This document shows positions 17,085 to 64,000 of a stretch of 64,000 nucleotides of DNA, in pieces. The first letter of the stretch is position 1. Each line of letters opens with the position of its first letter. The stretch comes from Sinotaia quadrata (lineage: Eukaryota; Mollusca; Gastropoda; Architaenioglossa; Viviparidae), in NCBI GenBank assembly GCA_028829895.1, contig CM054181.1, forward strand, positions 1,925,001 to 1,989,000, in the 5' to 3' direction. A program made the position numbers and the translations under genes. The notes beneath the pieces were generated by a model, which had not been told where the DNA came from, did no database searches, and saw nothing but the letters and a program-made list of their open reading frames with translations.

Positions 17085-17155
17085 CTATGCATGTGTGCAG
17101 GTACACACTGTAGGCAGCAGCCAGAATGACGTTTTCTCACACGGTCCCTCCACAG

Positions 17156-17237
17156 ATGTTGGTGTTTCTAATCACTTTGACCTTGGCGTATGCTGTGTCC
17201 TTCAACAATGGAGACATGAGACTAATCATCGCAAACA
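17156..17237 (+). CDS. exon 1 of vWA gene: signal peptide
   Basis: ATG at 17156 opens a strongly hydrophobic stretch (MLVFLITLTLAYAVS), a typical secretory signal. The exon ends at an aaca|gtaatg donor in phase 1, which joins exon 2 in frame (the split codon is ATG). The bases just before the ATG (tccctccacag) resemble a splice acceptor, so a 5' untranslated exon may lie upstream and the start codon may sit right at an exon edge. Confidence 0.55.
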
Positions 17238-20200
17238 GTAATGATATACATCACTTCCGGTCCTTCATCCCTTCGGATTTTATGATTTTATAATAGTTTA
17301 CCGTTAGCAAGAAAGCACTTAAATAATGATAGTAGTTTTGATACTGTTAAACATTTAGATTATGATTCGATTAACGAAATAACTTCAACGGAATTTTGAA
17401 ATAATACTTAATTTAACATCATTAATTTCCTCGTCATTGTAAACGAATGAGATTATTACTACAATTTTTATATTAAAAATTCAATTTCTCAGTGCGGTGT
17501 CATTTTATGCACTTGACAAACATCCGTTGGTCAATCTCAGATCGACAACCTAGGGCCACACAGAGACAGGGCAGCCAGGCTTCGCGAGTCATGCCTGCTG
17601 ACTACATGTACTATGCGAGTCGTTTGGGCGACCATCTCCAGACAGCTGAAGGTCGACAAGGAGCGGCGCCCTCTGTCGGAGACCTCGCGGCAGCATCAGA
17701 GAACGCGAGTGCCCATCTCAGCCCAGACGCGTTCGGCAGCATTACGCTGAAGAGACCGGCGGTGCCTGCTTCTGTAGCCCCTTATGCGAATCATACGAAC
17801 GTCCAGAAACAGTCCCCACAACCCGAGCCAGCCCTGTCACCTCTGCCTCCGAGCCAGCTGCTTCAAATTCTATCCAACCTCTTCGTTGCCGGCCTGGAAA
17901 AGCCCGGGGAACTCAAACCTTTAGATGTCAGCGAACCTGCGGGAGGTCCTGTCAAGGTACGCGGCTTGCAAGGGCTGACTGCCCCAGCAGTGCCACAGAC
18001 TCCGAGCACTGCAGACAAAGAAAGGCGGGCGCACTGCACGCCGATCGTGGACGTGGTCTTCGCCCTCGACGACATCGAAACAATATGGATGGCTCGGGAT
18101 GCCATTCGGCATTACGTCACGCACCTGAAGCCTGCTGGGAAGGCGCGCTTCGGAGTAGTGTTGTGCGGGCCACAGCTATCGTTCTATACAGCGCTACACA
18201 CTCACTTTTCAGGTAAGTCGGGCCACAGCTATCGTTCTATACAGCGCTACACACTCACTTTTCAGGTAAGTCGGGCCACAGTTATCGTTCTATACAGCGC
18301 TACACACTCACTTTTCAGGTAAGTCGGGCCACAGCTATCGTTCTATACAGCGCTACACACTCACTTTTCAGGTAAGTCGGGCCACAGTTATCGTTCTATA
18401 CAGCGCTACACACTCACTTTTCAGGTAAGTCGGGCCACAGCTATCGTTCTATACAGCGCTACACACTCACTTTTCAGGTAAGTCGGGCCACAGCTATCGT
18501 TCTATACAGCGCTACACACTCACTTTTCAGGTAAGTCGGGCCACAGCTATCGTTCTATACAGCGCTACACACTCACTTTTCAGGTAAGTCGGGCCACAGT
18601 TATCGTTCTATACAGCGCTGCACACTCACTTTTCAGGTAAGTCGGGCCACAGTTATCGTTCTATACAGCGCTGCACACTCACTTTTCAGGTAAGTCGGGC
18701 CACAGCTATCGTTCTATACAGCGCTACACACTCACTTTTCAGGTAAGTCGGTTTAGTTGTTTCCCTCCCTCCTCCCCCCCCCAAAAAAAAAATACTTCAC
18801 TTACTTAAATTATCGTCATTTCATATTAACCGTAAATAACATACTTGTGTCGTTTTTTACTTTCTTTCTTCTTACATGTATTTTTGTTCCAGGACTTCTG
18901 GCCAGTCTTGAAGACTTGCAGCACGCTAATACAACACTGGACTCCAATCGTGTTCAGATGCCAGACACGCTGGGCTACAGGGGGGACAACAATCCCTATC
19001 CACCCAGCGTTTCCTCCGATTTCAGCCAAATAGAGGCGCGGTGCTTTGAGACAGCCTATTACATGTTTATGTCTCAGGTGAATGTTTTGATCCCAATCCA
19101 TGTTCAGGGGAGCATATTGATCCGAATCCATGTTCAGGGGAACATATTGATCCTAACTGGTGTTCATGAGGGCATATTGATCCTAATTCATATTCAAACG
19201 TTTTATTCTAATCCATAAAACATCAAATCAAATTCTATATTCAGGGGAACGTTCCTATTTTGGTCCATGTAAAGTGGAATTTTATTAAACTAATCCATGT
19301 TCAAGAAAATGTTATCTTAAAGTGTGTTCAGCTAAATGGTTTGGTCTTAGTGCATGTTCAAATAAAAGTCTTTATCACACAATTCATTCTCTTGAAACCG
19401 TTTTAGTCCTAAGGCGTGTTCAGTTAAACATTTTGGTCTTAGTGTACATGTTCAAATAAAGGTTTTTATCACAATTCATTATCTTGCAAACACTTCAGTC
19501 ATGAAGCGTTTTCAGATACACGTTTTGATCCTTGGTCCTTCGTCCTAGAGCATGTGAACATTTTGATTCTATGTTCAAGAAAACTGTTCACTCCTTCTGT
19601 GTGTTTCTGTGTTAATTAAACGTTTTAGTGTTAATGTATGGTAGGTGATTTTAATCTGCGTTCATGAAAACGTTCCAGTCTTAAAGCATTCTAGATGGGT
19701 GTTTTCATGAACGCTACTCAGCACAACACGAGGAATGTTCAAAATAATCTTCGTGAATACTCATGACCAATCTCAAGTCACCATTCCCGTATTGGCTCAC
19801 AGGAATTAACTTAAGCAACACGTTACTGATAAGTTCGATGATAACGCTGAACGCACACACACACCTGATCAGGTAACTCTATCACTTTAGCCTGAAGCGG
19901 ACAAAACAACATCACGCTTTTCTCTGCAAAAGTCAAATTAAGCCAGTGCTAAATTTCAGGCATATTTCATCTCTAAAACTCCTTTCTCTCTTACATACAT
20001 TCTGAAACAATATTCTTAACTCGATACACACAGAATAAGAAACATTATATCGATCAAAATTCATAAGTATAATGTACAGCGTAATTAAATTAGTGAAGAT
20101 AAAGATAATGGTTTAATTACATAAAGCATTCTCCAATTCAAATCATAGATCGATACAAACATATACGAAATATTTCTAAGTCCATTCTTTCTTTATCGGT

Positions 20201-22361: not shown

Positions 22362-25300
22362 AAACACCAATGCCTTGTAGCAATATAGGTCTAAAGTTCG
22401 GACATTGAGCCTCATAAAATTAAAATATTGAGCCTCGTAAAATTAGGATATTGAGCCTCATAAAATTTAGATATTGAGCCTCATTAAATTTAGATACTTG
22501 CTTATTATCCAACATTTATGGAGTGCTCATTTCGCATTGTAGATTTAAGATTATTTTATTTTTATACTTTTGTTACGCGATTATTGTATAAGCTAGAAGT
22601 CTACTGAATCAAGAAGTCCGTGAGTGTATCTGCTGGAAGAGTGTTAATGATCTCACTTTTGATTCATCCATCCATCCAGTCAGCCTTCCCAGAAAACAAA
22701 TAAACAAACAAAGCAACCATCTTGCAACTTTAACTTTTGACCAGTAAATAAAGAGTGACTTGATGTCTAGTAGTCTCCTTTAGAGTTACAGGAATTATTT
22801 AAACTGCTCGTGGACAATTACTCCATATGACCTGATGTTTATGCAAGAATTATAATCACTTGCTCTCCCCAAAACATGCATGAAAATAACTTAAAGATCA
22901 AGTTACCTAGCAATAGCATTTGCATGGAACACTCTTGTTGTCAATAGTTAAGGATTTCATGTTCACTACCGGAACCCATTAGTACTGGATAGATGTGTTT
23001 GTGTAATTTGTATATTGTTCAGTTGTACACTCAGGTCATCGTGACATTGACTTTGCTTTCATACGGATGTTGTTTTGTTGTACACCTTACACCTGTTGTT
23101 TTGTTGTATACCTTACACCTGTTGTTTTGTTGTACACTTTACACCTGTTGTTTTGTTGTACACCTTACACCTGTTGTTTTGTTGTACACCTTACACCTGT
23201 TGTTTTGTTGTATACCTTACACCTGCTATTTTGTTGTATACCTTACACCTGTTATTTTGTTCTACACCTTACACCTGTTGTTTTGTTGTACACCTTACAC
23301 TGTTATTTTGTTGTACACCTTACACCTGTTGTTTTGTTGTACACCTTACACCTGTTGTTTTGTTGTACACCTTACACCTGTTTTGTTGTACACCTTACAC
23401 CTGTTGTTTTGTTGTACACCTTACACCTGTTGTTTTATTGTACACCTTACACCTGTTGTTTGCCGACCAAAAGTCCCTTACAACACTCGTATAAGTATAA
23501 GTATACATACATATTGTCTTACTGCTTACAGCGCGATATTATCACCCTCATGTTTCTTTCTGACTACATTGTTACTCGTTCTGTGCAGCTGTAGCATGCC
23601 ATGGTACGCTTTGATCAGTGTGAGAAGTAAACCTTTGCATCTCACAGATGTCTTACTAAACATGTCAAAATATACTTTGATCAGATCGAGAAGAAATGTT
23701 TTGCAGACCAAAGCTGCCTCAGCACCCAATCTGTTGAGACGCACTGAACCATTAATATATATTTTGAGAGGCAAAAGAAGCAATTCCTGACATACCAGAG
23801 CCCAAGATGTCCTGGTGCTCATCGTGTGCAAACTTGGTATCTCAAGACATGCTGTCACCACCCCAAAAATTGTGTCATTGCATATTTCTCAGATGTTTAG
23901 ACTCCAGTAATTACTTTGTTGTATACTCGCTCATTGCAGGCCAGATGTGTCTTAATATAAAATTCCTTGTTGGCCAAAGACGTCTTGACTTATTCCCTGC
24001 ACATCAAAGGAGTCTTGATACTTATTCCTTGTGGGCCAAAGGTGTCTGGATACTTATTCCTTGCAGGCCAAAGGTGTCTTGCCTTATTCCCTGCACATCA
24101 AAGGTGTCTTGATATAATTCCTTGCTGAGCAGATATGTCTTGATACTTATTCCTTGCAGGCCGAAGGTGTCTTGACATTTCCATGCAGGCCAAAGGTGTC
24201 TTGATACTTATTCCTTTCGGGCCAAAGGTTTGATACTTATTCCTTGCGGACCAAAGGTGTCTTGATATTTATTCCTTGCGGGCCAAAAGTGTCTTGATAA
24301 TTATTCCCTCCAGGCCAAAGGTGTCTTGCCTTGATTCCTTGCGAACCAAAGGTGTCTTATACTCCGTGTTGGCCTAAAGTACTAATGCTTATTCCTTGCA
24401 AACCAAATGTGTCTTGATACTCATTCTCTGAAGACCGAAGGTGTCTTGATATAATTCCTTGTCAACCAAATGTGTCTTGATACAATTCCTTGCATTGAAA
24501 GTGTTTTCATCTAATTCCTTGCAGATCGAAATACTCATTTCATACTCGTTGTGAACATGTTTGTTATGTCCAAATTTGTTTTGATCAGTTCCCAAATAGT
24601 TCCTTTCGCCCCAAAGACGTATCGAACTTGTGTGGACTTAATATTTTAAGGTAAGTTTATATGATAGTGATAAATAATTGTTTGCAGCTCAAATATGTTA
24701 ATCAGTTGGTGTTTGTTGCACCAATATTTTCAGCTTTCCAAAATGATCATATACTCATCCAGTCCGAGGCTAATTGTGCAGTTTTGAAATAGTAATACTC
24801 CTTGGGCTAATTGTGCAGTCTTGAAATAGTAAGACTCCTTGGGGTAAATATATTTTTGTGTCTGCACATCCACAGTTGTTAATAAGTCTTTTGGTCTGAT
24901 TAAAAATAATAATTCCAATAATTGTCATTATTTTGAATGTTCATTCTTAGCAAACCAAAGACACTGTTGATCGAATCCTGACAGTGGTTGGAACCAAAGA
25001 ACGCTGGGCACACCAGCTGTACGTGGACGAGGCGCACTATTTGCACTCGCTCAATATCTCCACCCTCGTGGTGGCTGACGGATCTCTGCCACAAGCGACC
25101 TTGGCCTCTCTGCGCAACATGGCGTCGTCAAATTTCAAGTTTCGCGCTGTGACCGACAGCGTTACAGTCTACAGTCTTCCATCTCTCATTGCCCAAGCCA
25201 TATGCTTGCGTAAGTACACATAGCATTGATGACGTCATATATTTACGTAAGTACACATTAATGACGTCAAAGACTTACGTATGATACACTCGTCATTGAT

Positions 25301-51230: not shown

Positions 51231-52189
51231 GAGGCGAAATGAAGACTTTTATTCTGAATGTTGAAAACGTCGATTCGTCTGAAGCCAGTCTAACTTCACG
51301 TATGAATTATCTCATGTACAGAGATTTCATAAAGGAAAGCTGCAATAATCTCTTTCCATCCGTTTTCCATCCGTCTGATGCCATATATTGAGTAACGAGG
51401 CAAAATTACTCAGTATAATTGTTGGCAAAGTGGAAAGTTCACTGTCCAAAGAAAACCCGATGCATGCGACGCTGGTTGTATGCAGCTAACGACACGAGGG
51501 ACCAACTTGTTCTTCCCCCTGTCTGAGTTCGTTTTGGCAGTCTATCCCGCGAATTGAGAGGCTAGCACCGTGATCGTCTCACAGACAATCCGGAGTTCTA
51601 CACTCAATGTAATGCGACGACACATCCCACTGGACGACTCTACCCGATAATGCTAAACGTCGTTGGGGGGTCCGTTTCCACGACAACCGGTACAACGATA
51701 ATTATCGAGGCTGACAACAGTCAGCTAAATTTCAGATTTCTCCCCAGTGATAATCTGAAAGTGGTGCCTAGATTCTGCAGAATCTTCACCTGTAATGCGA
51801 CGCCTCCATTGCGTCGATCTTCACTTTGAAGTGCCGCTTATAAGTGACGTGTGAGATTACGTCATCTCCTTGGAACTCTGACATTAATAGTGAGTAATAA
51901 TTAGCACGGCTAACGCGCACATACTTAACCCTAGGACTCAAGAAAATGAACACTATTATATCGTTTGCAAAATAAGAACTCTAATGTTAAAAGTAATGCT
52001 TATTTTACATGTGAACTGTTGTTAAAGCGGCCCCATTTGCCGCATAAGAATTGTGTAATTAACCTTTATTTTATATTTTGAATTTCATCATTTTCATCTC
52101 CCCTTATTTCCCACAGAGTGTATGACATTGGAAAGTTGAATGAATGATTAATCACTGTGCGAAAGAGTAGTGCCCCTTTTAAATCGGGA

Positions 52190-52195
52190 AATAAA
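52190..52195 (+). terminator. polyadenylation signals in the LTR
   Basis: AATAAA occurs at 52190-52195, 52338-52343 and 52364-52369 of the 5' LTR and at the matching positions (+6900) of the 3' LTR, where they would end the genomic transcript. Which one is used cannot be told from sequence. Confidence 0.5.
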
Positions 52196-52560
52196 TAACC
52201 TGATTTAAACATCTTTCAACTCTCTTGTTATTCATAGTTTTTGAGAGGGACGAAAGAATTTGTACTATTGTTTTGCACCGTTCGTCTGTTCGTCCATTTA
52301 TTCACATTTATGATACACACTCACAACACACACCGCCAATAAAACGTTCCTTGGCATGACATTAATAAAGTGGGCCCCACCCAAACATCAATGGAGTATG
52401 TCATGTGTGTCTATGTAACAACTTGACGCGACGTAGTACTGGCATACGTCACCGGACTTTTCTTGGAGGTGCACCGGAGCAGGCCAAAATTAGACTTCAC
52501 CCCTTGCATCTCTAACTTCAGCTCGAGGTCGGCTTGTAACGAGCCGCCCGTTTTGTGACA

Positions 52561-53026
52561 TTCTGGTGACCACTGACCGTGATCTGACAAGGTAAATTGT
52601 GTTGTTGTAAGAAAGTGTCATCTCTTTCCTGCTTTTCTATCTCATCACCATTATGCATTGTTTATTGCATGTTAGGGCTTGCTATTGAGACTTAGGTGAA
52701 CTGGATTTTGATAAGACTTATTATTATTGTGTTGAAATAAGTTTTATAATCTTTACGCTATTATCGTTAACGCGTACCGACTCGTGTTTAGACGTACATA
52801 GATCGATATTTTGTACGCTACATTAGCAACTGTTGTTTTGCTAATTTTGCTAACTTTGCAAATTTCCGATTAGGATTTCTTTTACTCGTGTTTGTAATAA
52901 TCCTAATCACGTGGTGGCTGGTGTTCATACACACACCATTGCACCACTTGTGACCTACAGAGGTCAAAATCCCGCGAATATTCTAAGTCACTTTATCCAT
53001 ACTCGTGATAACTAGCAATTTTTAAA
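52561..53026 (+). other. retrotransposon leader with candidate primer-binding site and intron
   Basis: Three bases after the LTR a TGG-starting sequence (tggtgaccactgaccgtg, 52564-52581) is positioned as a primer-binding site; I could not assign the tRNA. A donor-like caag|gtaaat at 52591/52592 and an acceptor-like gacctacag at 52960 would define a 369-bp leader intron, but this is inference. The frame starts at an AAAATGG context at 53027. Confidence 0.55.
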
Positions 53027-56000
53027 ATGGCCGAGCTAGTAAACATAAAGAAAGAACTCATGGCTATGGGCAGAGAATTCGGGTATGAGAAAGCCGAGTT
53101 AAAGAAATACGTGGATGAGGAGATAGCTAAATGGTATGTTGCGAAAGAAAATGAGGCGAAAGAGGCGAGAGAGTTAGAGGATAAGAAAAATGAGCTAGAA
53201 GAAAAGAGACAGGTAGCTAAGGATTTAGAGATGCAAACTTTGAGAGAGTTAGAGGAAAAAAGATCGAAAGAGGCGAGAGAGTTAGAGGAAAAAAGATCGA
53301 AAGAGGCGAGAGAGTTAGAGGAAAAAAGATCGAAAGAGGCGAGAGAGCTAGAGGAAAAAAGATCGAAAGAGGCTATAGAGCTAGAAGATAAGAGACAGTT
53401 AGCTAAACAGCTAGAGATGCAAAACCTGAGAGAGCTAGAGGAAAAAAGAGCGAAAGAGGCGAGAGATTTTAAAGAGAAAGAAATCCAAGATATGAGAGAA
53501 ATAGAGTTATTAAAGATTCAGTCAGCTAGGGATTTAGAAGATAAAAGGCAGGAAGTAGAAGAGAAAAAGCTTAAGTTAAAAGCTAGAGCACATCAGGAAC
53601 AGCTTGAATTAGCTAAGCAAGAGGTAACAGCTAGAGAGAAGTTGTTAGATGGGACTGCTAAGCAACAGGCCGAATTAAATAAACCCCGTACACGGCTAGC
53701 TTTCTTTAACCCTGAAGTCGAGACGATTGACGAGTTTTTGACACGCTTTGACAGTTTCATTGCCAACTTTAATTACACTGACATTGAAAAGAAACAACAA
53801 CTAGGTCAAATACTTCAAGGTGAAAGCTCGCGCGCATTTACTGATCTAACGCGCGATCCCGCTATTACTTATGCAGATCTCAAAACGGGTTTGATGCGTA
53901 CTTTTCAATGTACAGCAGAAGGCTTTAGAAAAATGTTTAGGAGGGCCATACCCAAAGCAAATGACACCATGCAAGCCTTCGGTACCCGGTTACGCCATTA
54001 TCTTGATAGATGGATTGATTTGACAGATATCCAGAAGACATATGAGGGCCTATTTGATTTGATATTAAGAGATCAATTTCTCCATATTGCTCCGCCTGCA
54101 ATGACGACATATTTGCAGCGAAATCCCCCGACTAACTTCTGTGATATGTTGAAGTTAGCAGACACGTATAATGATTACCCTGATCCGGTAATTACGAGGA
54201 GTGCGCCACGCCCTCCTCTTACAAATCGGCAGAAGTATACACCGAAATCGAACCGACCAATGACGAAATCGGAAAAACCCGAACCGGTACAGCGGACATA
54301 TACTAAGTCACAAGACGTACGACGTCACACCCGTGACTCCCCACCAATGACATGTTACACTTGCAAAGGGAAGGGGCATAGTTCTCAGAACTGTCCCAGT
54401 CCACGTGATGTAAAGGTATGCACTGAAACAGGTGCAACTCTAAAGACCCAACAGGCTACAGTAAACGGACAAAAAGTCAAAATACTGGTCGATACAGGCG
54501 CGTCCATAAGCTGCATAAATGCTAAACTTGTACGCCCTGAACAGTATCTAAGAGGTAGTGTCCGCATTCGATGTGTTATGGGACACCTTAGTACATGTCC
54601 AAGAGCCACTGTACATGTTACGTCACCCGTATTTTCCGGTACAGTCACCGCCGCAGTGATAAGAGACATGCAGTTCGGATTCATACTATCGCCCGGTCAG
54701 TGTGACGCACACACTGATGGCATCTATCCTGTTCTCCCCGTAACCACTAGAGCACAACGGGAACGTAGTAAACAAGGACCCCCAGCTCTAAAGATAGTCG
54801 AGAACACATTTCCGCAGTTGACCACAAGTCAACTCAGTCACCTGCAGCAGGAGGACAAAAGTTTGTCCTCAATGCTAAAGCTGGCACGGAAAAACACTAC
54901 TACGTCCAGCAAGTGCGCAACAATGACGTATTTCCTGAAGGACGGACTAGCGTTTCGGCGCACCGACTTTAAGGAAAATGATACTAGAAGCACCACGTGT
55001 TTATTTACCCCTACACCACTCAGACAGCTGATTCTTAGCTTTGCACACGACTCAATCATGTCCGGACATCAGGGCGCACGTCGCACTGAACAACGGATTC
55101 GCGAGGACTTTTTTTGGCCAGGCCTGAGTAGGGATGTTCGCTCGTACGTTCGTACATGTACGCAGTGTCAACAACATATCGACCGAGGGCGTGTCAGTCG
55201 AGTTCCCCTCGAGATAGTACCAACAGTAGAGGAACCATTCCTAAAAGTCGCAGTAGACATTATTGGCCCAATCATTTCCGCGGCCGAAGGAGGATATCGC
55301 TATATCCTAACAATCGTGGATTTTGCAACACGATATCCAGAAGCAGTCGCATTAAAGGGCATCACAGCAATAGAAGTCGCAGACGCTTTAATAGACGTAT
55401 TTTCTCGCACGGGCGTTCCCCGAGAGATATTGAGTGACCAGGGCACTCAATTCACCTCAGCAATGATGGCTGAAACAATGCGTCTACTGGCGTGTAAACA
55501 GTTGTTCTCATCACCATATCACGCTCAGTCTAATGGTGCCGTTGAACGTTTCAACGGTACGATAAAGAAAATGTTAATTAAAATGGCCTCGGAACAACCC
55601 GACCAGTGGCCACGTTTTCTAGCACCATTACTCTTCGCGTATCGCGAACTCCCACAAGAGAGTACGGGCTACTCACCGTTCCAACTACTATACGGCAGGC
55701 AACCTCGTGGTCCCCTTAAACTAATAAAAGAAACATGGGTCAAGGGAGACACTGTGACCGATGGTAAAGATGTTCACACGTACGTAGCCGAACTACGTCA
55801 ACGTCTGACCGAGACATGTCACTTAGCACAGGAAAACATTCGCGAAAAACAACCCCGATACAAGCGAAATTTTGACCGTACGGCTGTGGAACGTGACCTC
55901 GAACCAGGTCAGCTCGTGTTACTCTTGCGGCCCACGCATAACAACCGCATGCAAATGCACTGGCGTGGACCCTACCGCGTTATTAAGCGTGTGAAGCAGA

Positions 56001-57595
56001 ACGATTATAGCATACAGATAGGAAATAAGCAGAAAATCTATCACATAAATATGCTCAAGCGTTACTATGAACGCAGCGACGAACAGATACAAAACGTGAA
56101 TGTCGCACTGATACAATTGGAAGACTCCAATTTCAGAACAGACATGATGTCCGCCGAAACCACGCCTAACCCCGCAGTTACAGTCGATCAAGTCGATATT
56201 GACTCGAACTTAACTGTCGAACAGCGCGACGCAATGTCAGAACTCTTACACAGACATGCGCGCATATTCACCGACCAACCGGGCCACTCAGATTTGGTTG
56301 AACACCGCATCAAACTTTTAAGTGACAAACCGATACGCTTAAAACAGTACCCACAGAAATATGAGAGCACAAAGTACATAGCAGAACAGGTGCGTGAAAT
56401 GCAAGAACAGGGCGTGATTGAACAGTCAATCTCCCCATATTCATCACCGGTCGTCTTAGTTAAAAAGAAAGACGGTACGCTTCGTTTTTGTGTGGACTAC
56501 AGACAGTTAAATGAGATAACTGAATTCGATGCGGAACCTATTCCAAATCAGGACGAATTATTCGCAAAACTAACTAAGGCACATTACTTTTCGAAGTTTG
56601 ACATGTGCAAAGGGTACTGGCAACTGTCAGTTGCTATTGACGACAGACCAAAAACAGCCTTTCCAACCCCGTTAGGCTTATTTCAGTTTTGCCGACTACC
56701 GTTCGGACTAGCGAACGCACCCGCAACATTTGCGCGCTTCATGCGAAAATTACCGTTAGAGAGCGTTGACGCATTGAATTTCTTTGATGACATTCTGGTA
56801 GCAACAGGAACATGGGACCAACATTTATCTTCAGTGGGTGGTCTACTTGACATTCTCGAGCGCCATAAATTGACCGTGAAACCCACCAAAGTACGCGCGG
56901 GCTTTCGGGAGATTGAGTTTCTTGGCCATATCATAAGTGACGGACAAATAGGCCCAAATCTAGACTTGACTGCAGCCATTCGTGACATGACCTTACCGAC
57001 TACAAAGAAACAGGTCAGGGCAGTTTTGGGGCTAGTGGGGTACTACCGAAAATTTGTCCCAAACTTCAGTACGCTTCTTAAACCACTGACGGACTTAACT
57101 GGAAACAAACAACCCACGAAAATACGATGGACGGCAGAGTGTAGCACCGCCCTCGAAAAAGTGAAGGACATCTTGACCAGTAAACCCGTCCTACAGTTAC
57201 CAGACTTTGACAAAAGATTTATTGTCAGGACCGACGCATCAGACGAAGGCCTCGGTGCCATACTTCTCCAAGAGACAGATGACGAATACCTACCGGTAGC
57301 ATACGCTTCTAAGAAACTGTTAGATCGTGAGACACGGTATTCTACGATTGAAAAAGAGTGCTTAGCAATCGTATGGGCACTCAAGAAATTTAGTGCTTAT
57401 CTGTACTCTAAACCATTCATCCTGCAGTGCGATCATAAGCCGCTGACATATCTGCGCACTAGCATGTATGATAACGCTAGGCTAACTAGATGGACACTCC
57501 TGCTACAGGAGTATAGCTTCGTTGTCGAACACATCGCGGGCCGAGAAAATTCGGGTGCCGATGCATTATCCCGGCATGCCATAACCGCGATATAA
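53027..57595 (+). CDS. Gag-Pol polyprotein of Gmr1-like retrotransposon (1522 aa)
   Basis: A single intact frame. Residues 20-215 are a highly charged coiled coil including four exact 11-residue repeats (73-116). Residues 220-400 are the Gag capsid, with a SCAN-like stretch at about 298-381. A CCHC zinc knuckle follows (C443, C446, H451, C456), then an aspartic protease with DTGA at 489-492. Integrase comes next: zinc site H674, H681, C711, C714; catalytic D744, D804, E840 (35 residues between the last two); GPY motif at 981-983. Reverse transcriptase follows, with D1192 and FFDD at 1252-1255, then RNase H (D1403, E1444, D1469, D1512). Start at 53027: A at -3 and G at +4. All catalytic residues are present, with no stop or frameshift. 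There is no chromodomain and no envelope. Gag and Pol are fused in frame, so no frameshift site is needed. Confidence 0.96.
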   Translation: MAELVNIKKELMAMGREFGYEKAELKKYVDEEIAKWYVAKENEAKEARELEDKKNELEEKRQVAKDLEMQTLRELEEKRSKEARELEEKRSKEARELEEKRSKEARELEEKRSKEAIELEDKRQLAKQLEMQNLRELEEKRAKEARDFKEKEIQDMREIELLKIQSARDLEDKRQEVEEKKLKLKARAHQEQLELAKQEVTAREKLLDGTAKQQAELNKPRTRLAFFNPEVETIDEFLTRFDSFIANFNYTDIEKKQQLGQILQGESSRAFTDLTRDPAITYADLKTGLMRTFQCTAEGFRKMFRRAIPKANDTMQAFGTRLRHYLDRWIDLTDIQKTYEGLFDLILRDQFLHIAPPAMTTYLQRNPPTNFCDMLKLADTYNDYPDPVITRSAPRPPLTNRQKYTPKSNRPMTKSEKPEPVQRTYTKSQDVRRHTRDSPPMTCYTCKGKGHSSQNCPSPRDVKVCTETGATLKTQQATVNGQKVKILVDTGASISCINAKLVRPEQYLRGSVRIRCVMGHLSTCPRATVHVTSPVFSGTVTAAVIRDMQFGFILSPGQCDAHTDGIYPVLPVTTRAQRERSKQGPPALKIVENTFPQLTTSQLSHLQQEDKSLSSMLKLARKNTTTSSKCATMTYFLKDGLAFRRTDFKENDTRSTTCLFTPTPLRQLILSFAHDSIMSGHQGARRTEQRIREDFFWPGLSRDVRSYVRTCTQCQQHIDRGRVSRVPLEIVPTVEEPFLKVAVDIIGPIISAAEGGYRYILTIVDFATRYPEAVALKGITAIEVADALIDVFSRTGVPREILSDQGTQFTSAMMAETMRLLACKQLFSSPYHAQSNGAVERFNGTIKKMLIKMASEQPDQWPRFLAPLLFAYRELPQESTGYSPFQLLYGRQPRGPLKLIKETWVKGDTVTDGKDVHTYVAELRQRLTETCHLAQENIREKQPRYKRNFDRTAVERDLEPGQLVLLLRPTHNNRMQMHWRGPYRVIKRVKQNDYSIQIGNKQKIYHINMLKRYYERSDEQIQNVNVALIQLEDSNFRTDMMSAETTPNPAVTVDQVDIDSNLTVEQRDAMSELLHRHARIFTDQPGHSDLVEHRIKLLSDKPIRLKQYPQKYESTKYIAEQVREMQEQGVIEQSISPYSSPVVLVKKKDGTLRFCVDYRQLNEITEFDAEPIPNQDELFAKLTKAHYFSKFDMCKGYWQLSVAIDDRPKTAFPTPLGLFQFCRLPFGLANAPATFARFMRKLPLESVDALNFFDDILVATGTWDQHLSSVGGLLDILERHKLTVKPTKVRAGFREIEFLGHIISDGQIGPNLDLTAAIRDMTLPTTKKQVRAVLGLVGYYRKFVPNFSTLLKPLTDLTGNKQPTKIRWTAECSTALEKVKDILTSKPVLQLPDFDKRFIVRTDASDEGLGAILLQETDDEYLPVAYASKKLLDRETRYSTIEKECLAIVWALKKFSAYLYSKPFILQCDHKPLTYLRTSMYDNARLTRWTLLLQEYSFVVEHIAGRENSGADALSRHAITAI
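53243..53374 (+). repeat. 33-bp coding repeat in gag, 4 copies
   Basis: Encodes RELEEKRSKEA four times (residues 73-116), followed by a diverged fifth copy. The repeats are almost identical at the DNA level, so the expansion is recent. It keeps the coiled-coil frame. Confidence 0.95.
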
Positions 57596-57606
57596 ACAAG
57601 AGAGAG

Positions 57607-57651
57607 GATAGTCTCTCCACAGATGCGCATATAATTCCTGTGGGGACTATC
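57607..57651 (+). other. hairpin downstream of gag-pol
   Basis: GATAGTC (57607-57613) pairs with GACTATC (57645-57651), and CCACAG (57617-57622) pairs with CTGTGG (57638-57643). The loop has 15 nt, with a small asymmetric internal loop. The role is unknown. Confidence 0.75.
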
Positions 57652-57657
57652 GTGTGA

Positions 57658-57663
57658 AATAAA
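57658..57663 (+). terminator. AATAAA between the stop codon and the 3' LTR
   Basis: A canonical hexamer just after the hairpin and before the polypurine tract. If used it would cut the transcript before the LTR, so the element may suppress it or use it for a subgenomic RNA. Confidence 0.35.
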
Positions 57664-57713
57664 ATTATTTTTGTTCCTATTTGATTTCCACTCTGTGAGC
57701 TCCAATCAATTTT

Positions 57714-57723
57714 AAGAAGGGGG
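57714..57723 (+). other. polypurine tract
   Basis: AAGAAGGGGG lies one base before the 3' LTR start, where plus-strand priming would occur. Confidence 0.88.
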
Positions 57724-57724
57724 T

Positions 57725-59460
57725 TGTCACAGGAAATGAGGGACCGAAATTATATTTTATTTCATTTTAAAAAAAAAAACGCTAACAAAACTAATTGAAG
57801 TAATCCGAGTTTCGTTATTTTTCGTATTTAGCATGTAACTTCCAGTAACGGTCACCTAAGATCTCTTTAGTAGACAGACGTTCGTGACGCAGTGTGTGTT
57901 AATATATCATATTGAATATATGTATTAGTTTATGAAGAATATGTATATTAAATAAATTGGGACAACTGCGCAATACCGTCACATGTTGTTGACGAGTGAA
58001 ATGGCCAGTGCGCATTAGAATTGACCACAGAAAAGCGTGCATCACGATTACCACTATATATCCAAGGCAAAAATCATGTCACAGGACATAGCTTCTGGAA
58101 GTTTTGGAGACCTTCAGTAAAGCTATATAAGAGGCGAAATGAAGACTTTTATTCTGAATGTTGAAAACGTCGATTCGTCTGAAGCCAGTCTAACTTCACG
58201 TATGAATTATCTCATGTACAGAGATTTCATAAAGGAAAGCTGCAATAATCTCTTTCCATCCGTTTTCCATCTGTCTGATGCCATATATTGAGTAACGAGG
58301 CAAAATTACTCAGTATAATTGTTGGCAAAGTGGAAAGTTCACTGTCCAAAGAAAACCCGATGCATGCGACGCTGGTTGTATGCAGCTAACGACACGAGGG
58401 ACCAACTTGTTCTTCCCCCTGTCTGAGTTCGTTTTGGCAGTCTATCCCGCGAATTGAGAGGCTAGCACCGTGATCGTCTCACAGACAATCCGGAGTTCTA
58501 CACTCAATGTAATGCGACGACACATCCCACTGGACGACTCTACCCGATAATGCTAAACGTCGTTGGGGGGTCCGTTTCCACGACAACCGGTACAACGATA
58601 ATTATCGAGGCTGACAACAGTCAGCTAAATTTCAGATTTCTCCCCAGTGATAATCTGAAAGTGGTGCCTAGATTCTGCAGAATCTTCACCTGTAATGCGA
58701 CGCCTCCATTGCGTCGATCTTCACTTTGAAGTGCCGCTTATAAGTGACGTGTGAGATTACGTCATCTCCTTGGAACTCTGACATTAATAGTGAGTAATAA
58801 TTAGCACGGCTAACGCGCACATACTTAACCCTAGGACTCAAGAAAATGAACACTATTATATCGTTTGCAAAATAAGAACTCTAATGTTAAAAGTAATGCT
58901 TATTTTACATGTGAACTGTTGTTAAAGCGGCCCCATTTGCCGCATAAGAATTGTGTAATTAACCTTTATTTTATATTTTGAATTTCATCATTTTCATCTC
59001 CCCTTATTTCCCACAGAGTGTATGACATTGGAAAGTTGAATGAATGATTAATCACTGTGCGAAAGAGTAGTGCCCCTTTTAAATCGGGAAATAAATAACC
59101 TGATTTAAACATCTTTCAACTCTCTTGTTATTCATAGTTTTTGAGAGGGACGAAAGAATTTGTACTATTGTTTTGCACCGTTCGTCTGTTCGTCCATTTA
59201 TTCACATTTATGATACACACTCACAACACACACCGCCAATAAAACGTTCCTTGGCATGACATTAATAAAGTGGGCCCCACCCAAACATCAATGGAGTATG
59301 TCATGTGTGTCTATGTAACAACTTGACGCGACGTAGTACTGGCATACGTCACCGGGCTTTTCTTGGAGGTGCACCGGAGCAGGCCAAAATTAGACTTCAC
59401 CCCTTGCATCTCTAACTTCAGCTCGAGGTCGGCTTGTAACGAGCCGCCCGTTTTGTGACA
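57725..59460 (+). repeat. 3' LTR (1736 bp)
   Basis: Identical to the 5' LTR apart from two transitions, at an exact offset of 6900 bp. It starts TGTCACA and ends TGTGACA. Confidence 0.97.
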
Positions 59461-63697: not shown

Positions 63698-64000
63698 CAG
63701 TATAGCGAGATGAGTACTATGTTGTGTCGAAATCAGAAGACTTTAAGACAAGCAGTACAGGTGTAGCGAGATGAGTACTATGTTGTGTCGAAATCAGGAG
63801 ACTTTAAGACAAGCAGTACAGTGGAAAGGTGAGATTATCAATCCGTTATGTCGAAATCAGGAGACTTTAAGACAAGCAGTACAGGTGAGATTATCAATCC
63901 GTTATGTCGGAATCAGGAGACTTTAAGACAAGCAATACAGGTGAGATTATCAATCTGTTATGTCGAAATCAGGAGACTTTAAGACAAGCAATACAGTGGG
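63698..64000. repeat. minisatellite running off the window edge, 56-66-bp units, at least 5 copies
   Basis: Units contain gtcgaaatcaggagacttta and agacaagcagtacag. Later copies join as cag|gtgagattatcaatc. The array is cut by the end of the window. Confidence 0.93.

Follow-up and report, generated by a model that had tools for sequence, protein, structure and literature searches.

Eleven tandem copies of a splice donor at an inferred exon-intron boundary of Sinotaia quadrata

How can a gene be expressed when the splice donor of one of its exons stands in a row with ten identical copies of itself? This question is raised by a locus of the viviparid gastropod Sinotaia quadrata that we analyzed within a stretch of 64,000 nucleotides of contig CM054181.1 (referred to as the window throughout). 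The array of donors, the reading frame that runs into it, and the loss of this frame with any donor later than the first are direct observations on this DNA.

The 53-bp array and its host gene

Within the 64-kb window, a 53-bp unit is repeated 11 times head-to-tail on the forward strand at positions 18167 to 18749; TRF calls the same minisatellite at 18166-18751, with 11.1 copies and a 98% match. Each unit is composed of 46 exonic and 7 intronic bases and ends in CTCACTTTTCAG/GTAAGTC (the slash denotes the exon-intron border). The word CAGGTAAGT starts at positions 18210 + 53k, with k running from 0 to 10, and is absent from the rest of both strands of the window. This confirms the intact CAG/GTAAGT in 11 of 11 copies that a previous reading of the letters alone (the sequence-only reading) had noted, together with their 53-bp spacing; its coordinates for the donors (18212 + 53k) and for the downstream acceptor (18892) are correct as well. 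As a repeat, the array is with certainty far beyond chance, and it was found at this single place in the 984-Mb assembly (26 contigs; among contigs 1-14, eight measure at least 54 Mb and six at most 520 kb).

Only two sites of the unit vary among the copies, with a C>T change at position 10 and an A>G change at position 30. Relative to copy 1, the former change alone is present in copies 3 and 5 and both changes in copies 9 and 10, and the remaining seven copies, copy 1 among them, are identical to each other; at positions 10/30, copies 1-11 read ca ca ta ca ta ca ca ca tg tg ca. This ordered series of variants argues against an assembly artefact, i.e., fewer copies in the animal than in the assembly, as does the presence of at least 11 copies in 15 of the window's 86 loci with a period of at least 10, this one included, and we regard such an artefact as very improbable. 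Both variants are synonymous in copy 1. Synonymous transitions are possible at 17 of the 53 unit positions, and simple arithmetic gives a chance of about 0.10 that both changes would be synonymous, a weak hint, to be set against the explanation favored below, that the variants passed through the coding copy.

With a score of 12.85 bits, the donor CAG/GTAAGT ranks first on the forward strand of the window, the strand to which this ranking with a donor matrix was confined (runner-up, 12.04 bits). Since only two unit positions vary in the entire array, the intact donors are a mark of the youth of the array and no sign of selection; selection on the donors was accordingly set aside as unsupported. 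An RNA structure that would mask donors 2-11 was also rejected, the array being less structured than its shuffled versions (z of +2.2; all 20 shuffles fold equally well or better).

Copy 1 possesses the exon-side flank, copy 11 possesses the intron-side flank, and CGG is found at both edges of the array, as in microhomology-mediated duplication. In view of these two flanks, the earlier claim that the first copy is the original one does not hold as a demonstrated fact.

The array is embedded in an inferred gene of four exons on the forward strand, in which 425 codons remain open with consistent phases (intron phases of 1, 1, and 0; exon 4 ends in phase 1). The coding part of exon 1 (17126 to 17237) begins with an ATG, has by eye a signal-peptide-like start, and terminates in phase 1 at the donor CA/GTAATG, which scores only 1.17 bits. 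Exon 2 (17493 to 18212) is delineated by the reading frame and ends in phase 1 at donor 1. It is followed by intron 2 (18213 to 18892), whose current length of 680 nt would shrink to 150 nt if a single copy of the unit were counted. Exon 3 (18893 to 19077; entered in phase 1 and left in phase 0 at CAG/GTGAAT) and exon 4 (24951 to 25209; donor TTGC/GTAAGT, phase 1) likewise follow from the reading frame. The GC content of exons 2-4 is 58% (computed from 17495 for exon 2), 51%, and 53%, compared with 37% for the window. With an acceptor matrix, the inferred acceptors score 1.88 (exon 2), 9.05 (exon 3), and 2.29 bits (exon 4). The exon 1 donor and the acceptors of exons 2 and 4 score low, and these three boundaries therefore carry less certainty than donor 1 and the acceptor of exon 3. 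What supports the predicted exon structure is its reading frame, its phases, its base composition, and its splice signals rather than homology. Donor 1 is the most likely end of exon 2, a proposal that gains strength from the open reading frame that runs through exons 1-4 with matching phases.

The gene product is predicted by eye to be secreted. Searches of Pfam returned no family for it up to an E value of 1, and none up to an E value of 10 for the part encoded by exons 2-4; in the PDB, no relative was found beyond one meaningless match at an E value of 2, and Rfam and tRNA searches found nothing. A von Willebrand A-like pattern was a by-eye impression that no search supports. When a 214-amino-acid query from exons 2-4 was run against the 984-Mb genome, all 13 matches were the gene's own exons or copies of the array, and no paralogue was found at an E value of 1 or below, a threshold that distant relatives could escape. 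Only 47 of the 1276 coding nucleotides lie inside an array, all of them in the 53-bp array. The coding sequence hence looks depleted of arrays, which would be expected if exonic arrays are mostly removed and the present one owes its survival to leaving the protein unchanged.

Consequences of later donors

Among the 11 donors, donor 1 alone keeps the four-exon frame open, as the sequence-only reading had maintained; each of donors 2-11 leads to a premature stop (10/10). Its description of the frames proved accurate too. Extension of exon 2 to donor 2 or 3 shifts the frame by +53 or +106 nt and places the stop in exon 3, and extension to any of donors 4-11 terminates the read-through after 313 codons at an in-frame TAA (18320 to 18322, forward strand) that belongs to the third GTAAGT, that of donor 3. 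Three, four, and four stops are present in the three frames of the array, which therefore cannot be coding throughout. With donor 2, the stop lies 44 nt upstream of the junction between exons 3 and 4, and with the other nine later donors at least 166 nt upstream. Animal transcripts in which a stop lies far ahead of a junction are usually degraded. When equal donors compete, those proximal to the intron are often preferred; such a preference would put a cost on the ten donors that follow donor 1 and argues for some form of rescue, a point against the explanation favored below.

The explanation that we favor, and hold with reasonable though by no means full confidence, is that of a neutral minisatellite across the exon 2/intron 2 boundary that is tolerated without having a function of its own, with donor 1 giving rise to the functional mRNA. 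The 53-bp segment, flanked by CGG microhomology, would have been duplicated, presumably via this microhomology, and the duplicate would then have expanded to 11 near-identical copies. Joining of donor 1 to exon 3 would produce the functional mRNA, transcripts from donors 2-11 would be lost, probably by nonsense-mediated decay, and the array would persist because enough correct mRNA is made. Among the options listed in the sequence-only reading, the neutral accident is the one that best fits the load of minisatellites (86 loci in the window and a cover of 15.4% elsewhere).

That reading had also offered a decoy or rate control, in which the additional donors would hold U1 snRNP, divert a fraction of the transcripts to decay, and thereby tune expression. 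The premature stops that follow from 10 of 10 later donors would suit such a function, and donors in the repeat units of human IFI6 are used in real isoforms, as described in the cited part of PMC4526556. However, the array displays no sign of constraint, its two variable positions reflecting youth or homogenisation; it is just one among the 86 loci of the window, and its layout constitutes the sole evidence for this idea, to which we give little credence.

An acceptor-like sequence fused to each donor

At every unit boundary, CTCACTTTTCAG/GTAAGT forms an acceptor-like sequence that directly abuts the donor, a feature that the sequence-only reading had overlooked. This in-array acceptor reaches 7.41 bits with the acceptor matrix (rank 72-82 of the 3552 AGs on the forward strand of the window), a value above those of the exon 2 (1.88) and exon 4 (2.29) acceptors and below that of exon 3 (9.05). 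An acceptor as good was found in 9 of the 306 other AGGT occurrences on both strands, one of which has a donor of at least 8 bits and none a donor of at least 12 bits. As the arithmetic of the layout shows, splicing from donor i to a later in-array acceptor j (j > i) removes whole units without leaving a trace. On paper, 1024 of 1024 ratchet paths that start from donor 1 arrive at the identical exon 2-exon 3 join, and re-splicing after each wrong donor restores this join in 10 of 10 cases. The earlier conclusion that the cell must either choose the first donor or lose the transcript is thereby left without support, since each unit ends in a good acceptor as well.

A second explanation consequently deserves attention, that of a self-erasing array, in which the unit boundary acts both as acceptor and as donor and the units are spliced out singly, in groups, or by re-splicing from donor 1 to the boundary that closes the last copy retained. 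It would share its origin with the neutral minisatellite and account better for the tolerance of the array. Several lines of evidence are consistent with it: an in-array acceptor that surpasses those inferred for exons 2 and 4, the rarity elsewhere in the window of its combination with a strong donor, the logic by which every ratchet path and re-splice gives the right join, and precedents among introns derived from tandem duplications, as found in the cited parts of PMC4974935 and PMC3629103. The unit, however, is devoid of a branch site at a usable distance, its sole match to yTnAy being CTCAC, 8 nt upstream of the AG; since animal branch sites are degenerate, this is a weak negative. Moreover, a competing acceptor-like AG in each unit, TATCGTTCTATACAG, which scores 6.23 bits and lies 21 nt ahead of the boundary, would break the frame and leave a trace if used, and the acceptor of exon 3 is stronger than the in-array one (9.05 versus 7.41 bits). 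An intron of 53 nt, that of a single unit, may furthermore be too short for the animal spliceosome; multiples of 53 nt are not. Taken together, we consider self-erasure a possible but rather unlikely explanation. Its corollary, that the repeat number would alter the length of the intron and never the mRNA, is unlikely as well and is put forward tentatively from the layout of the units.

A minisatellite that supplies multiple splice donor sites was reportedly, to go by the title, the subject of a 1995 study by Turri, Cuin and Porter on IFI6/6-16. In the account of IFI6 given in the cited part of PMC4526556, two of the repeat units further downstream serve as donors and three mRNA species result, and the minisatellite study by Turri, Cuin and Porter (1995) appears in the reference list of PMC2572611, the part of that paper drawn upon here. 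As in this direct precedent, the S. quadrata array is a minisatellite with several splice donors: its units are head-to-tail, fall into the range of 10-100 bp, carry a consensus 5' splice site each, and lie at an inferred exon end. In contrast to IFI6, whose unit of 12 bp would keep the frame in additional copies, the 53-bp unit shifts the frame, every later donor leads to a stop, and each unit possesses a good acceptor.

Intron gain by tandem duplication of AG/GT, with the GT provided by one copy and the AG by the next, is known from ATP2A1 and is described in the cited part of PMC4974935 for the potato RdRp gene; the duplication in the latter crosses an intron-exon boundary, as the present array does. 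For fission yeast (Schizosaccharomyces), the cited part of PMC3629103 presents intron gain from 24-nt repeats with a proto-splice site called AGGC, and states that in vivo splicing of one of the two cases needs more work. The S. quadrata unit likewise holds an AG/GT in an acceptor-like context; as a branch site it offers only the CTCAC at 8 nt from the AG, again a weak negative. Whereas a new intron is reported in those systems, that in the array is only predicted and would be nested inside an old intron. Recursive splicing or dual-specificity sites consist of an acceptor directly followed by a donor and are normally single sites. The present units resemble them in this fusion, with a pyrimidine-AG immediately followed by a strong donor, and differ in that 11 of them stand in tandem and the unit is without a consensus branch site. 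Intronic minisatellites in fish are mentioned in PMC3045353, the cited text of which contains no donor array. The S. quadrata array joins both ideas, the donor minisatellite and the intron from tandem duplication: its unit shifts the frame, it offers 11 donors, and an acceptor-like sequence is fused to each of them. Within the limits of our literature search, we do not claim that such a case has never appeared in print.

Repeat load of the genome and meaning of the array

TRF reported 155 rows for the 64-kb window, which merge into 93 loci that cover 35% of it. Eighty-six of these loci have a period of at least 10; at least 11 copies are present in 15 of them, the 53-bp array included, and a match of at least 98% in 14. 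Another 14 stretches, each of 10 kb and placed at round coordinates on eight contigs (one stretch holds 2616 masked bases), contain 102 loci with a period of at least 10, about one per 1.4 kb of the 140 kb; the combined cover of all TRF loci is 15.4%, with a range of 0.5-43% among the stretches. Exact recurrence of a 30-nt stretch 15-120 nt downstream characterizes 9% of 9086 sampled window positions, and the exon 2 donor is a position of this kind. If positions are assumed to be independent, the chance of such a match at one of the seven inferred junctions is about even. A junction match by an array of 11 copies is less likely than that, because only 15 of the 86 loci have at least 11 copies. 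As a coincidence, the location of the array on a junction is hence a modest surprise.

Searched words, AGGT among them, occur on either strand in the consensus units of 14 of the 86 loci. No enrichment of AG/GT in the units is claimed; a head estimate from base composition expects more than 14 of 86. Five strong-donor words were found in the consensus of none of the 126 arrays in 16 other stretches, two of which flank the window. Near the edge of the window, an array at 63720-63996 contains units with CAG/GTGAGA at 63884 and 63940 and AAG/GTGAGA at 63828, with donor scores of 11.0-11.8 bits; it is a possible second donor-bearing minisatellite. The window also holds a Ty3/gypsy-type element at 51566-58729, with one frame of 1527 codons (53012-57595) that includes a protease and in which an integrase (residues 667-837) precedes reverse transcriptase and RNase H (1150-1501), an order that we take to be that of Gmr1-like elements. 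Two identical 87-amino-acid ORFs, one at 51566 and one at 58466, suggest that the LTRs of this element are young.

Of the inferred donors of the gene, those of exons 2, 3, and 4 have a tandem repeat at or beside them and that of exon 1 has none; no array was found at its three acceptors, the nearest array edge being at least 103 nt away. The proportion of sampled window positions (n = 9086) that match themselves as well as the donor-spanning segment does is 9% for exon 2, 24-32% for exon 3, and 32-50% for exon 4, the latter two values varying with the segment chosen. Seeding of arrays at splice donors as a general rule was rejected, these self-matches not being unusual among window positions. 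At the exon 3 donor, TRF and comparison of the units reveal a 30-bp array (19075 to 19196, forward strand). The donor sequence CAG/GTGAATG agrees with the next 30-bp unit at 24 of 30 positions, a value equaled at none of 38634 places outside arrays, and later copies have CAGGGGA or CATGAGG instead of CAGGTGA and are devoid of the GT. We read the exon 3 donor as a diverged initial copy of this array, which is possibly an older donor array with decayed extra donors; in the 30-nt recurrence comparison, the repetitiveness at this junction is not unusual for the window. The repeat at the exon 4 donor is a short, imperfect one reported by TRF (25210 to 25289, forward strand), in which GTAAGTACACAT of the donor recurs at chance level.

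With its 11 identical and equally spaced donors, the locus constitutes a natural experiment on the choice between equal 5' splice sites, in which any wrong choice can be recognized from its length and frame. Use of the in-array acceptors would make the locus an intermediate of intron birth in multiplied form and would account for the survival of a coding edge amid a repeat cover of 15% in the sampled stretches and 35% in the window. Should the self-erasing explanation be true, units with dual sites would be the kind of repeat able to survive on exon edges, and numerous natural tests of how 5' splice sites compete and how introns are born would be at hand.
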